Below are positions 25,992-50,617 of a DNA stretch of 64,000 nucleotides, in pieces. Positions within the stretch are counted from its first letter, which is position 1. Each line of letters opens with the position of its first letter. The translations under genes and the position numbers were made by a program. Under the pieces are notes generated by a model. That model ran no database searches and was not told the origin of the DNA. It worked only from the letters and a program-made list of their open reading frames with translations. The DNA is from Kosmotogaceae bacterium. GTDB taxonomy: Bacteria > Thermotogota > Thermotogae > Petrotogales > Kosmotogaceae. The stretch lies in assembly GCA_016933635.1 (NCBI GenBank), contig JAFGAP010000197.1, positions 38,492-102,491 of the forward strand, given 5' to 3'.

Positions 25992-28559
25992 ATGTACTTC
26001 CTCGAAAGAGTGATGGCGGTACCACGATTGCCGGAGAAGCTAAGAAGACTTGAAGAACTTTCAAAGAACCTTTGGTGGAGTTGGAACTACCGCGCTCAAC
26101 AGATGTTCAAGTATATGGATCCAGAAATGTGGTATCAGGAAAGAAGGAGTCCCGTAAGGCTTCTTCGAAGGATAAGTCAAACCAGACTTTATGAGCTTTC
26201 CGAAGACAAACCATTTATTGAAATGTATGAAAGTGTCGTCGGAGAGTTTGATGAATATATGGGTGGGAAAGATACCTGGATGGATAGAGAACATCCCGAC
26301 AGAAAAGAACAATGTATCGCGTATTTCTGTGCCGAATATGGCTTCCATGAATCTTTCCCGATCTACTCCGGGGGTCTTGGGATTCTTGCTGGAGATCACT
26401 TAAAAACTGCCAGCGATATGGGACTGAACTTCGTTGCTATTGGTCTTTTATACAGGAACGGTTACTTCGAACAGAGAATCGACGAGTCGGGCTGGCAGCA
26501 GAATATTTACCACTCCTATGAATTTGAGGACTTTCCTGTAGTTCCCGCACTGGATGACTCGGGAGATGAGATATTCGTTAACATCGACTTCCCAGGCAGG
26601 AAAGTCTGGGCAAAAATCTGGAAGGCAGCTGTGGGAAGAACATCTCTATATCTACTTGATACAGACATTCCCCAAAACGAGCCGGAAGACAGAAACATAA
26701 CGGCTACGCTCTATGGCGGCGATCGGGAAACTAGGATAAAGCAAGAGATTCTCCTTGGCATAGGAGGAGTGAGGGCTCTCAGAATGCTTAATTATTCACC
26801 GAATGTTTGGCACATGAATGAAGGGCACGCGGCCTTCCTTTCTCTAGAGAGAATCAGAGAGTTGGTTCAGAAGAACTCTATAGATTTGTCCACAGCTTCA
26901 ATGATTGTAAAATCTGGAAACGTCTTTACCACTCACACTCCTGTACCCGCAGGGAACGACACGTTCAGCCTTGAGATAATCGACAAATACTTCGGTGATT
27001 TCTTGAGCTCAATAAGAGCCGAGAGAGAAGAATTCATTAACCTTGGGATCGAGAGACTTCCGGGTGGAGGCCAGCAATACAGTATGACCGTTCTTGCCCT
27101 TAGATTGTCCGCTCTCGCTAATGGAGTCAGCAAGCTGCACGGAAGGGTAAGCAGAAACCTTTGGAATCATATCTACCCTGACCTGCCCGCTGTTGAAGTC
27201 CCTATATCTCATGTTACGAACGGAGTACATATCTGGACCTGGCTGAACCCAAATCTACTCAAACTTCTAGACAAATATTTGCCTGTTGGTTGGCATGAAA
27301 AGGTTTACGACCCCGAAATCTGGGAGTCGGTGGGCAAGATACCCGAAGAGGAGATCTGGGAATTGCACATGTCGCTAAAATCAAGGGCAAGAAACTTTCT
27401 GCAAGGTAGGCTTAAGAGGCAAAGAATGAGACTGGGCGAAACCATAGAAGATCTTATGGAAGTCGAAGAAGCTCTTCCTGAGGATGTTCTTACGATAGGA
27501 TTCGCAAGGAGATTTGCCACATATAAGAGAGCGACGTTAATCTTCAAAGATATCAACAGGCTGAAGTCGATAATCACGAACTCTGAAAGACCTGTTCAGT
27601 TTGTTTTTGCCGGGAAGGCTCATCCTGCAGACGATCCTGGTAAGGAGCTGATAAGAAAACTTTATGAAATTTCCAGGACTCCTGAATTCAAGAGCAGGAT
27701 TATCATTGTTGAAAATTACGACATGAACATCGCTAGACACTTGGTGAGCGGTGTAGATATTTGGCTCAATACACCAAGGAGACCTCATGAAGCCAGTGGG
27801 ACCAGTGGCGAAAAGGCAGGTATGAATGGGGTTCTGAATTTCAGTGTTCTAGACGGCTGGTGGGTAGAAGGCTTCAATGGAGAGAACGGCTGGGCCATCG
27901 GCGACAACAGAGATTACAAGGACCACGAGCTTCAGGATAGAATAGATTCCGTTTCCATTTACAGCTCACTTGAAAAGGAGATAATTCCTCTTTACTACTC
28001 CAGAGATGAAAATGGAGTTGCCAAAGAGTGGGCAAAGAGAATGAAAAACTCTATCAAAGAAATCGGAAGCAAATTCAATACGCACAGGATGATAGCAGAC
28101 TATGCAGAAGATCTATATTTTCCAGTCGCCGATCTTTCCAAAGAAGCCGAAAAAGATGGTTTTAGACTCGCAAAGAGTGTTGCCATCTGGAAAGACAAAT
28201 TCAGTTCGAGCTGGAATGCCATAAGAATCAAGCCCAACATGCTAGGAGAGGCTTCTGCAAAGTCCGTTAAGGTGGGGCAGGAGATTTCTCTTTCAGCGAA
28301 CATATATCTCGGTACCATGGATCCTTCGGAGGTTCAGGTCGAGATCTTCGTGGCGAAGATGAATGACGAAGGAGAAATGGACGGTTTCAACCTTTACCCC
28401 ATGAAGTTAGTTAAGGAGGATGTTCACGGAGAATACGTATATGGGGGCAAATTTACCATATCAGAAGAGGGACAACTTGCATACACTGTTAGAGTGATCC
28501 CTAATCCCGAAAGACTACCTCACAGATACTTCATACCTGCTGCAAAATGGATTACATAA
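25992..28559 (+). CDS. glgP: Alpha-glucan phosphorylase (glycogen phosphorylase family)
   Basis: 'LRRLEELSKNLWWSWN', 'AYFCAEYGFHESFPIYSGGLGILAGDHLKTASDMGL', 'GVDIWLNTPRRPHEASGTSGEKAGMNG'. Confidence 0.93.
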   Translation: MYFLERVMAVPRLPEKLRRLEELSKNLWWSWNYRAQQMFKYMDPEMWYQERRSPVRLLRRISQTRLYELSEDKPFIEMYESVVGEFDEYMGGKDTWMDREHPDRKEQCIAYFCAEYGFHESFPIYSGGLGILAGDHLKTASDMGLNFVAIGLLYRNGYFEQRIDESGWQQNIYHSYEFEDFPVVPALDDSGDEIFVNIDFPGRKVWAKIWKAAVGRTSLYLLDTDIPQNEPEDRNITATLYGGDRETRIKQEILLGIGGVRALRMLNYSPNVWHMNEGHAAFLSLERIRELVQKNSIDLSTASMIVKSGNVFTTHTPVPAGNDTFSLEIIDKYFGDFLSSIRAEREEFINLGIERLPGGGQQYSMTVLALRLSALANGVSKLHGRVSRNLWNHIYPDLPAVEVPISHVTNGVHIWTWLNPNLLKLLDKYLPVGWHEKVYDPEIWESVGKIPEEEIWELHMSLKSRARNFLQGRLKRQRMRLGETIEDLMEVEEALPEDVLTIGFARRFATYKRATLIFKDINRLKSIITNSERPVQFVFAGKAHPADDPGKELIRKLYEISRTPEFKSRIIIVENYDMNIARHLVSGVDIWLNTPRRPHEASGTSGEKAGMNGVLNFSVLDGWWVEGFNGENGWAIGDNRDYKDHELQDRIDSVSIYSSLEKEIIPLYYSRDENGVAKEWAKRMKNSIKEIGSKFNTHRMIADYAEDLYFPVADLSKEAEKDGFRLAKSVAIWKDKFSSSWNAIRIKPNMLGEASAKSVKVGQEISLSANIYLGTMDPSEVQVEIFVAKMNDEGEMDGFNLYPMKLVKEDVHGEYVYGGKFTISEEGQLAYTVRVIPNPERLPHRYFIPAAKWIT

Positions 28560-28587
28560 AGGAACCCGCCTAACGGCGGGTTCCTTT
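28558..28587. terminator. Bidirectional terminator hairpin
   Basis: AAAGGAACCCGCC-TAAC-GGCGGGTTCCTTT between convergent genes. Confidence 0.85.
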
Positions 28588-28915
28588 AATTGTTGGACGA
28601 GAAATCGCTTAATGTTCTCTCGAAATCACCCGGAGAAATATCTCCCCACAAAAGAGATTTATAAAGACCTGGAACGCTAATTATCGCTTTCAGCTCTTCA
28701 TCAAGGAAGACTCTTTTTCTTGGGTCATAATGACCGTCCAGAATGACTTCCGTCGATTCAGAACCCGAAGTAATCATTCCGATAACGGCATTATAGACCT
28801 CTGTGATTTCAACTTCCCTCAAGCCAAGTTTCTGAAGCTGTTCATAGATCTCGTGACTTTCGTTTCCCTCAGCTATCATTCTGAGAACCACATTTATGTA
28901 ATCAGGAAAGGTCAT
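28586..28915 (-). CDS. Conserved hypothetical small helical protein
   Basis: ORF with coding-like composition, operon position; no confident family. Confidence 0.6.
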   Translation of the reverse strand: MTFPDYINVVLRMIAEGNESHEIYEQLQKLGLREVEITEVYNAVIGMITSGSESTEVILDGHYDPRKRVFLDEELKAIISVPGLYKSLLWGDISPGDFERTLSDFSSNN

Positions 28916-40894: not shown

Positions 40895-40930
40895 AAATAT
40901 GAGTCATAATAGTCATTATGACTCATATTT
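40895..40930. repeat. Perfect inverted repeat, dif-like candidate or operator upstream of the xer gene
   Basis: AAATATGAGTCATAAT-AGTC-ATTATGACTCATATTT: 16-bp arms, 4-nt spacer, no mismatch. Confidence 0.9.
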
Positions 40931-40933
40931 CGT

Positions 40934-40939
40934 ATTATA
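40934..40939 (-). promoter_or_regulatory. Candidate extended -10 (TGTTATAAT on the minus strand) of the xer gene
   Basis: + strand ATTATA at 40934-40939; TGn precedes TATAAT on the minus strand; no clear -35. Confidence 0.5.
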
Positions 40940-41086
40940 ACACACGGCTTTCTTCAATACTACGGCTATAAGCTCCATTTAACAAGGGTTTCAGCGTGAC
41001 ACCTCTCAAAACGCCCTGTGCTGAATTTTTCTTCCCTTCTATATCTATTTATACTCATGCCTAAAGAAACTAGCAATATGAGCCGT

Positions 41087-42046
41087 TTAACGCGTTCGTG
41101 TTTGTACACCGCTTTCAAAGCGAGTTTTAATTTCAGATATTAGAAGTCTGTATTTATCGGCCAGTCGATACCTCTTTCCCTCACGCAATACAAGCTCTTC
41201 TTTGATCCCGGAGTAGTGTTTAGAAAGAGCGCCCATTATTGCACCCAGTGCCATAGGTCCTTTCACCAGTTCGCTCTCGTTTTCCTCCAGGAAACTGTTA
41301 ATTCTATCTACCAAGTCTTCACCCAACATGGGTGAATCAAGTAAGGAAAAGAGCATTCCCACAGTGGGTAACTTGAGTCTTTCCAGAATGAATTCTTGAA
41401 GTTCCTCTTTGGACCATTCTTTTTGAAGCGATACCTGCGGTTTCCTAGCCAGCTCCTTTTTGTAAGCAAGTAGCATTAACTCCATAAATGATGATATTCG
41501 TTTGTCGTAGTTATCGTCCGTAACAAGAATCGACGCGACTGAACTAACTGGAAGCTCGATTTGCTCTATCATTGAAAACAGCATGCCAAGACGTCCTACT
41601 GTCACAAAGGGTCTCCCGAGATCAATCGCTTCGGGAAGAATTAGGAGAGCATTCCTTGCAACTCCTTTGGCCTCTTCGAAATCCGTACATATGATCGCCG
41701 AGACTCTTATCTGAATAGCCTCGCCCACCTTCCAGATCCCAGTTATCTTCTCTCTACCGGAGTACTTAACATAGTCAACGGAGAAACCCGATAGCTCGGC
41801 AAGTCTATTAACGAGATCTGCGTAAGCTCTCCCTAGGCTCTCAGAATCGCCATCAAAAGTAGGATAGGCTTCAAGTAAGCCCTCGATGTCGCTGATGATA
41901 GATTCAGGAGACTTGTACTTTGAAAGATACTCGCGTATGAATCTATTTCTACTTGATTGCTCCCCTCCATCGTCACTCAGCTTACCAAGTATTTTTACAA
42001 CATCAACCGATGCAATTTGTGCTGGCATTATATCACCTCTACACAT
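41087..42046 (-). CDS. Hypothetical protein, about 319 aa
   Basis: Long ORF with coding-like composition; start probably ATG at 42028 (MPAQIASVDVV). Weak resemblance to nuclease-like 'GFSVDYVKYSGREKITGIWKVGEAIQIRV' only. Confidence 0.7.
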   Translation of the reverse strand: MCRGDIMPAQIASVDVVKILGKLSDDGGEQSSRNRFIREYLSKYKSPESIISDIEGLLEAYPTFDGDSESLGRAYADLVNRLAELSGFSVDYVKYSGREKITGIWKVGEAIQIRVSAIICTDFEEAKGVARNALLILPEAIDLGRPFVTVGRLGMLFSMIEQIELPVSSVASILVTDDNYDKRISSFMELMLLAYKKELARKPQVSLQKEWSKEELQEFILERLKLPTVGMLFSLLDSPMLGEDLVDRINSFLEENESELVKGPMALGAIMGALSKHYSGIKEELVLREGKRYRLADKYRLLISEIKTRFESGVQTRTR

Positions 42047-44398: not shown

Positions 44399-44581
44399 AA
44401 GAGCAGCTTCGCTTCTGTAATTTGTCCAAAAAAGAGTTTCGCAACTATAATAATTGACAGACATTCCGAATCCTTTAAAGGCATTTTGGTCTTTGTGATC
44501 TTCCTATTCTTTCAAGTTGCATCTCCTAGAATAATAGTGAGTCCAGCTGTATTTTCCCGAAGGAATCTCAGATTAAGACAA

Positions 44582-44614
44582 GTCAAAGAGGCGGGGAGAT
44601 CCCGCCTCTTTGAC
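44582..44614. terminator. Bidirectional terminator hairpin
   Basis: GTCAAAGAGGCGGG-GAGAT-CCCGCCTCTTTGAC, 14-bp perfect stem between convergent genes. Confidence 0.85.
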
Positions 44615-44628
44615 TCATTATAGTGTAT

Positions 44629-49543: not shown

Positions 49544-50617
49544 CTATCTATAAAGACGTCTCGTAAAAACAATAGCATCTTCAGGGCAAAGCTCATGACA
49601 GACGTAACATAATATGCATTTTCTGTAGTCAATGGCAAACCTGCTGATGTCAATAGCTTTTGCTGGACATGCGTTTTCGCAGATGCGACAACTTCTGCAT
49701 TTTTCTCTATCTATCTTCGGAAACTTCGTTACTATTCTTCTCAGCAAAGCCGCCCCATAGACACCAATGAAGTTAGTTTCGGGAAGAAGCAGCTTTTCAG
49801 GGTGTACTTCGTCACCAACTATATCGTAGTCACCGACCAGGCCTCTGTCTCTCGCTATTTGCAGTATCGGAACTTTTGAATGGTTGATGCCGAATAATTC
49901 CGCTATAGCATCGTCCAACGCAAAAACATCCCTTGACATCCCGATTATTCCTGGCTTGATAATCCTACCATTCGACGGACCGTTGCCGTCCATCCCATGT
50001 ATGCCATCAATTACAGTCAGATCCGGCCTCAAATGAACGGCTAGATCTAGAAGCATCCTCGAAAACTCCTTCATGTTTCTGACTCTGAAATGCCAGCCCT
50101 GTTTCTTAGCACCGGGAACGCACCCAAAGAGGTTCTTCACCCCTAGTGTAACCCGAGTTAGTACGTGAGTCTTGAGCTTAGGCAGATTTATCAGGAGATC
50201 AGTTTCAAGAACTGATTTAGAAATGACGAAACTCCTGTACGTTCCCTCGTCAAAGATAATTTGAAAGGGATCATCGAAATCAAGCAGAGGTATCCCCAAC
50301 TCCTCGCACACTTGGGCGATTCCAGAAGCATATCCCGCAACAGAAGAACTTGTACTAGCGGGAGAATCCCCAACGCTCACCTCTGCTCCTTTTTGAAGAA
50401 ACATTTCTGCAACCGCCCTAACAAATTGGGGGTTTGTGGTTACACAACTCTCCGGTGATCTTGCCGATAGAAGATTGACTTTCAGAAGAACCTTCTTTCC
50501 CCGGAGAGTTTCGTCGAAACCGATCAGTTCTAGCCCTTCACTGATCTTCTCCCTGCACTTTTTGTATTCTAGGCTGCTTAGGATTGCTACCCTTTTCGTT
50601 TGACTCTCGTTTCCCAT
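49544..50617 (-). CDS. DUF362 domain protein with C-terminal 2x[4Fe-4S] ferredoxin motifs
   Basis: 'KKVLLKVNLLSA..PE..VTTNPQFVRAVAE', 'CRSCRICENACPAKAIDI', 'CILCYVCHELCPEDAI'. Confidence 0.92.
   Translation of the reverse strand: MGNESQTKRVAILSSLEYKKCREKISEGLELIGFDETLRGKKVLLKVNLLSARSPESCVTTNPQFVRAVAEMFLQKGAEVSVGDSPASTSSSVAGYASGIAQVCEELGIPLLDFDDPFQIIFDEGTYRSFVISKSVLETDLLINLPKLKTHVLTRVTLGVKNLFGCVPGAKKQGWHFRVRNMKEFSRMLLDLAVHLRPDLTVIDGIHGMDGNGPSNGRIIKPGIIGMSRDVFALDDAIAELFGINHSKVPILQIARDRGLVGDYDIVGDEVHPEKLLLPETNFIGVYGAALLRRIVTKFPKIDREKCRSCRICENACPAKAIDISRFAIDYRKCILCYVCHELCPEDAIVFTRRLYR

Follow-up and report, generated by a model that had tools for sequence, protein, structure and literature searches.

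A perfect 36-bp palindrome stands immediately upstream of a gene for an Xer tyrosine recombinase in a Kosmotogaceae bacterium, and the question it raises is whether it is the chromosomal dif site of that recombinase, an operator of the xer gene, or a hairpin in the xer mRNA. No published description of dif in Thermotoga or Kosmotoga was found in the open-licence literature, and the dif survey of 2011 (PMC3025954, Table 1) contains no Thermotogae row. The DNA analysed here, referred to as the window, is a stretch of 64,000 nucleotides, and the coordinates of its relevant features are collected in Table 1.

Table 1. Features of the xer locus in the window, with the grounds for each assignment
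Feature	Position	Strand	Basis
Single Xer tyrosine recombinase, 299 aa	39974..40873	-	Catalytic R151 K177 H247 R250 H273 Y282; domain and profile matches
Full perfect inverted repeat, 16-bp arms and 4-nt loop	40895..40930		Sequence, inverted-repeat scan
dif-like core, 28 bp, ATGAGTCATAA-TGACTA-TTATGACTCAT (11-6-11, xer orientation)	40899..40926	-	Mesotoga conservation, TAA-n6-TTA, single copy
-10 box TATAAT (extended -10, TGTTATAAT) of the xer promoter	40934..40939	-	95% identical in Mesotoga
Putative accessory motif 2 (CACAGGGCGTTTTGAGAGG in Mesotoga), upstream of dif at ~98 bp from its centre	41002..41020	-	Near-fixed spacing
Putative accessory motif 1, resembling motif 2 in inverted form, upstream of dif at ~172 bp from its centre	41074..41094	-	Conservation
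Conserved upstream neighbour, 319 aa, predicted C-terminal winged-helix-like domain	41087..42046	-	Conservation, weak Foldseek matches

The palindrome and its core

The palindrome at 40895-40930 reads AAATATGAGTCATAAT-AGTC-ATTATGACTCATATTT, 36 bp with zero mismatches, exactly as the preliminary description had it. A scan of the window for arms of at least 12 bp and loops of at most 20 nt found no longer perfect inverted repeat, the others having arms of 15, 14 and 12 bp only, and 20 first-order Markov simulations yielded at most one 12-bp inverted repeat and nothing near 16 bp. The 15-bp repeat (44581-44615, 5-nt loop) lies between convergent genes and is probably a bidirectional terminator, and the 14-bp repeat occupies 28557-28588, with a 4-nt loop.

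The earlier reading of the palindrome as two recombinase arms around a 6-bp centre holds for the centre but not for the proposed 10-bp arms, which are better drawn as 11 bp on either side of TGACTA in the xer orientation. Thirteen base pairs of arm symmetry are kept in most Mesotoga, and pairing beyond them is not conserved. The dif-like core is intergenic and single-copy in its own draft genome. The single copy expected of a dif was also found when three mismatches were tolerated in a search with the 26-bp core, so that the palindrome is likely to be single-copy in its own genome, represented here by an 80%-complete draft of 260 contigs. An Rfam search at the xer/palindrome locus gave zero matches. 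Neither arm pattern has a copy in viral contigs, and thus there is no sign there of elements using the site.

Conservation of the site in Kosmotogaceae

Conservation beside xer orthologues, which the preliminary description had named as a mark of dif, extends to every Kosmotogaceae genome in which xer was matched: all 16 of them (five genera) have a similar site in front of the gene, with its centre 38-66 bp from the xer start codon. The 11-6-11 layout with TAA-n6-TTA is kept in all five genera, and the centre is always 6 bp. The site is ATGAGTCATAA-TGACTA-TTATGACTCAT in Mesotoga and ATGATACATAA-TGTTGA-TTATGACTCAT in a second Mesotoga clade; it is TGGAGACATAA-TGTATA-TTACGTCTCCA in genera g3 and g4, TGGAGACATAA-TATACA (or TAGACA)-TTATGTCGCCA in g5, and TGGACGTATAA-GAAAAC-TTATACGTCCA in g2. 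Among seven Mesotoga, mean pairwise identity reaches 99% in the 28-bp core, compared to 57-60% for the DNA between elements. In g5 (L013 and L014) the central hexamer points the opposite way, with respect to xer and to the putative accessory motifs, from that of Kosmotoga and Mesotoga. One Mesotoga chromosome (G006) also has two copies of CATAATTGTTATTATG, dif-like cores 3.1 kb apart (850564 and 853690) and away from xer. In other Thermotogae families no such site was found in front of xer, and a pattern search for the Kosmotoga core across the class gave no consistent dif outside the family.

The same comparison bears on whether the palindrome serves as a hairpin at the 5' end of the xer mRNA, with a role in stability or attenuation. 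From the predicted start, the transcript would fold with -16 to -22 kcal/mol in most members, and the arms change together between genera, although a protein that binds both arms would lead to such symmetric change just as well. The constant centre of 6 bp speaks against the hairpin. The G006/G010 clade of Mesotoga has a disrupted stem (-6.6 kcal/mol) and an intact dif layout, which favours recognition of the DNA by Xer and makes a pure hairpin role very unlikely.

Similarity to known dif sequences

The dif of E. coli is GGTGCGCATAATGTATATTATGTTAAAT (PMC2731167). On its opposite strand, the g5 site of G016 has 17 of 17 core nucleotides (CATAATGTATATTATGT) in common with it, the g3 and g4 sites share CATAATGTATATTA, the Kosmotoga sites have 14 identical nucleotides, and the window site carries the inner CATAA-n6-TTATG. 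On a scoring matrix built from 40 proteobacterial dif sites, the window site obtains only 4.65 bits and ranks sixth in the window, which counts against the dif reading, though the sister sites of G016 and G006 obtain 13.6-13.9 bits, that of G006 being the top match in 400 kb sampled from its chromosome.

The top match to this matrix in the window (18.8 bits) is ACTACAGAAAATGCATATTATGTTACGT at 49602-49629 on the minus strand. It was rejected as a dif: it lies inside the coding sequence 49544-50617, at a 4Fe-4S cysteine motif, does not occur in the sister genomes at three mismatches, and is taken as a chance match.

Position relative to the replication terminus

Skew was computed at fourfold sites with a correction for gene orientation, the sequence being sampled in 20-kb pieces from complete chromosomes. 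The 2.30-Mb chromosome of G002 displays a clean two-arm skew with the origin at ~1.02 Mb and the terminus at ~2.22 Mb, a fit reached by 0 of 200 permutations. The distance from the origin to the site, at 2.076 Mb, is 1,060 of 1,151 kb, the fitted terminus is 147 kb away, and the skew already falls sharply at 2.08 Mb. Since a random site would come this close to the terminus with a chance of ~13%, the position in G002 supports a terminus location of the site without proving it. In the complete Mesotoga chromosomes G006 and G008, a weak switch from positive to negative is found 30-90 kb from the site. The overall skew of these two is weak, and both fits bring the origin breakpoint implausibly close to the terminus; in G004, the second Kosmotoga chromosome, 20-kb samples gave no usable signal. 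The skew comparison proposed earlier supports the dif reading in G002, only weakly in Mesotoga and not at all in G004.

The xer gene and its promoter

The xer gene gives the only Xer match in its draft genome. Its product carries the Phage_integrase and SAM-like domains and the catalytic R-K-H-R-H/W-Y set, whose residues are invariant among the orthologues compared. Among the NCBIfam equivalogs tested, XerD scores best (258.8 bits, with 329.6 needed), followed by XerC (251.7 vs 335.15) and XerA (206.8 vs 220); the protein is below every cut-off and is thus not XerC or XerD proper. In families f2 and f10 no full-length orthologue was found, the matches being weak and mostly partial, so that dimer resolution there may differ.

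The candidate extended -10 element noted earlier is confirmed as TATAAT on the minus strand. A similar box occurs in nearly all genera, the -10 region being 95% identical in Mesotoga, and the predicted xer transcription start coincides with the border of the dif-like site. With the site starting at about +1, binding of Xer should block xer transcription; Xer may thus repress its own gene, with dif and operator being one and the same element.

This arrangement also brings in the possibility that the palindrome is solely an operator of xer, where a dimeric regulator or Xer itself blocks transcription, and that dif is elsewhere. The overlap with the predicted +1 beside a conserved extended -10 is what such an operator would show, and xer genes that belong to other operons, in other families, have no such site in front of them. 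However, an unrelated operator would not be expected to show either a fixed 11-6-11 layout with TAA-n6-TTA or a 17-nt match to the E. coli dif; the site is near the terminus in G002, and the window's best canonical dif match outside the palindrome is intragenic and unconserved. An operator without a dif function is accordingly unlikely. Copy number, conservation beside xer and the position near the terminus in one complete chromosome all support the dif reading of the preliminary description, and, as judged from sequence, the palindrome is very probably the chromosomal dif of a single-Xer system.

FtsK and the control of recombination

Control of chromosome dimer resolution in bacteria is generally attributed to FtsK. 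None of the 17 Kosmotogaceae genomes has a match over the cut-off to PF01580 (the FtsK/SpoIIIE motor) or any match to PF09397 (FtsK gamma), in searches that recovered the positive controls from E. coli, B. subtilis and others. Among 103 genomes of the class, some of them partly scored, PF01580 gave only two marginal matches. The Kosmotogaceae thus appear to be without recognisable FtsK/SpoIIIE; as only part of the candidates was scored in some genomes, the same is suggested, and not stated, for the whole class.

With the palindrome as dif, Xer monomers would occupy the two 11-bp arms, the dif sites of a dimeric chromosome would synapse in pairs, and strand exchange where the arms meet the 6-bp centre would resolve the dimer to monomers. 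Xer seated on dif would probably also shut down xer. As no recognisable FtsK/SpoIIIE is present in the family, control would need another source, as it does in archaeal XerA/dif. One possibility is the upstream DNA, in which two inverted motifs may act like the accessory sequences of cer and psi.

Putative accessory motifs and the neighbouring gene

In genera g2-g5 motif 2 reads CTTARAATCGATTCTGNGAGG and stands upstream of dif, at 97.5-99.5 bp from its centre; it is diverged in G004. In Mesotoga it is changed to ACAGGGCAWTTTAMGAGGTC at an unchanged distance. Motif 1, its inverted copy, is clear in g2, g3 and g5, at 170.5-172.5 bp; Mesotoga and g4 have diverged forms of it. When the upstream region was put to a shift test across all genera, the support was only modest. 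Within the family genomes searched, CTTARAATCGATTCTGNGAGG occurs with at most one mismatch at the xer locus only, and in our own comparison motif 2 does not match the Arg-box consensus. Pairing of the two motifs in an RNA stem was considered as well; it is perfect in one genome and broken in others, and such a stem is therefore not favoured.

In G006 and G012, a related motif pair directly fronts genes for small tyrosine recombinases, with motif 2 a few nucleotides from the start codon. These proteins (L019 and L022 in G006, L020 in G012) consist of the catalytic domain only, with 216-217 aa, and the L019 and L022 copies share a 1.19-kb stretch that is 97% identical. The pairs favour a link of the motifs to tyrosine recombinases, whether as operators or as accessory sequences. 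The chances are even that motifs 1 and 2 are an operator of xer or of the neighbour gene and not accessory sequences for recombination: motif 2 is ~82 bp upstream of the predicted xer start, and the placement of the related pair in G006 and G012 is typical of regulation, but the spacing between motif 2 and the dif centre varies by no more than 1-2 bp from genus to genus, in spite of divergence of the intervening DNA, and the motif is essentially missing elsewhere in these genomes.

The gene for the 319-aa protein adjoins the site in every genome where the region is readable. The protein belongs to no Pfam or NCBIfam family. Its predicted model (mean pLDDT 82) has weak Foldseek matches, the best with an E value of 0.036, to winged-helix proteins such as TubR and regulators of the MarR and PadR types, which weakly suggests a winged-helix-like domain at the C terminus. 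We can speculate that this protein is a partner of the Xer system and perhaps joins in accessory control. Taken as a whole, the scheme in which FtsK-less Kosmotogaceae use one Xer and a dif with cer-like accessory sequences and a winged-helix partner, where a topological filter would replace the FtsK pump and the site would double as the xer operator, is a possible one, if on balance doubtful.

Comparison with known systems

The Kosmotogaceae system resembles XerS/difSL and XerH/difH (PMC2731167, PMC5357621) in having one recombinase and a dif beside its gene. The centre of difSL is 11 bp, whereas that of the Kosmotogaceae site is the classical 6 bp, and the arm sequences of both difSL and difH differ from it. 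XerS/difSL also needs FtsK (PMC2958812), which was not found in Kosmotogaceae. With XerL/dif of Legionellales (PMC9765430) it shares the single recombinase and the uninterrupted long inverted-repeat arms; however, the dif of L. pneumophila is more than 400 kb from xerL, while the Kosmotogaceae site adjoins xer, and XerL is not an orthologue of XerC or XerD (PMC9765430).

At the plasmid sites cer and psi (PMC2409434, PMC5357621), as here, ~180 bp of accessory DNA lies on one side, a motif is ~100 bp from the core, and FtsK is dispensable, an accessory role of the Kosmotogaceae DNA being hypothetical. Unlike them, the Kosmotogaceae site is chromosomal, and its motif is not an Arg-box by consensus. 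In cer the accessory DNA measures ~180 bp, and the Arg-box in it is separated from the XerC site by 98 bp (PMC2409434). Since an Arg-box at 97 bp from loxP turned out to be irrelevant (PMC2409434), this likeness in spacing is weak evidence and is to be treated as a lead.

The archaeal XerA/dif systems of Pyrococcus and Sulfolobus combine one Xer with a near-palindromic 11-6-11 dif and no FtsK (Cortez et al. 2010, PMC2958812); the dif of Sulfolobus is close to xerA and has a short conserved flank on one side, and in Thermococcales the conserved flanks contain inverted repeats (PMC2958812). Kosmotogaceae, with a single Xer, an 11-6-11 site and no FtsK found, are similar. They differ in being a bacterial family, in having the putative dif inside the xer promoter and the motifs within ~180 bp on one side, and in an Xer that scores best against bacterial XerD, below all equivalog cut-offs. 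The site supplies a dif candidate for a phylum missing from Table 1 of the 2011 survey (PMC3025954). A bacterial family with Xer and dif and no recognisable FtsK also makes FtsK-independent control, known from these archaeal systems, testable outside archaea, and the adjacent accessory motifs together with the neighbour gene are a candidate answer to how such control may be achieved.
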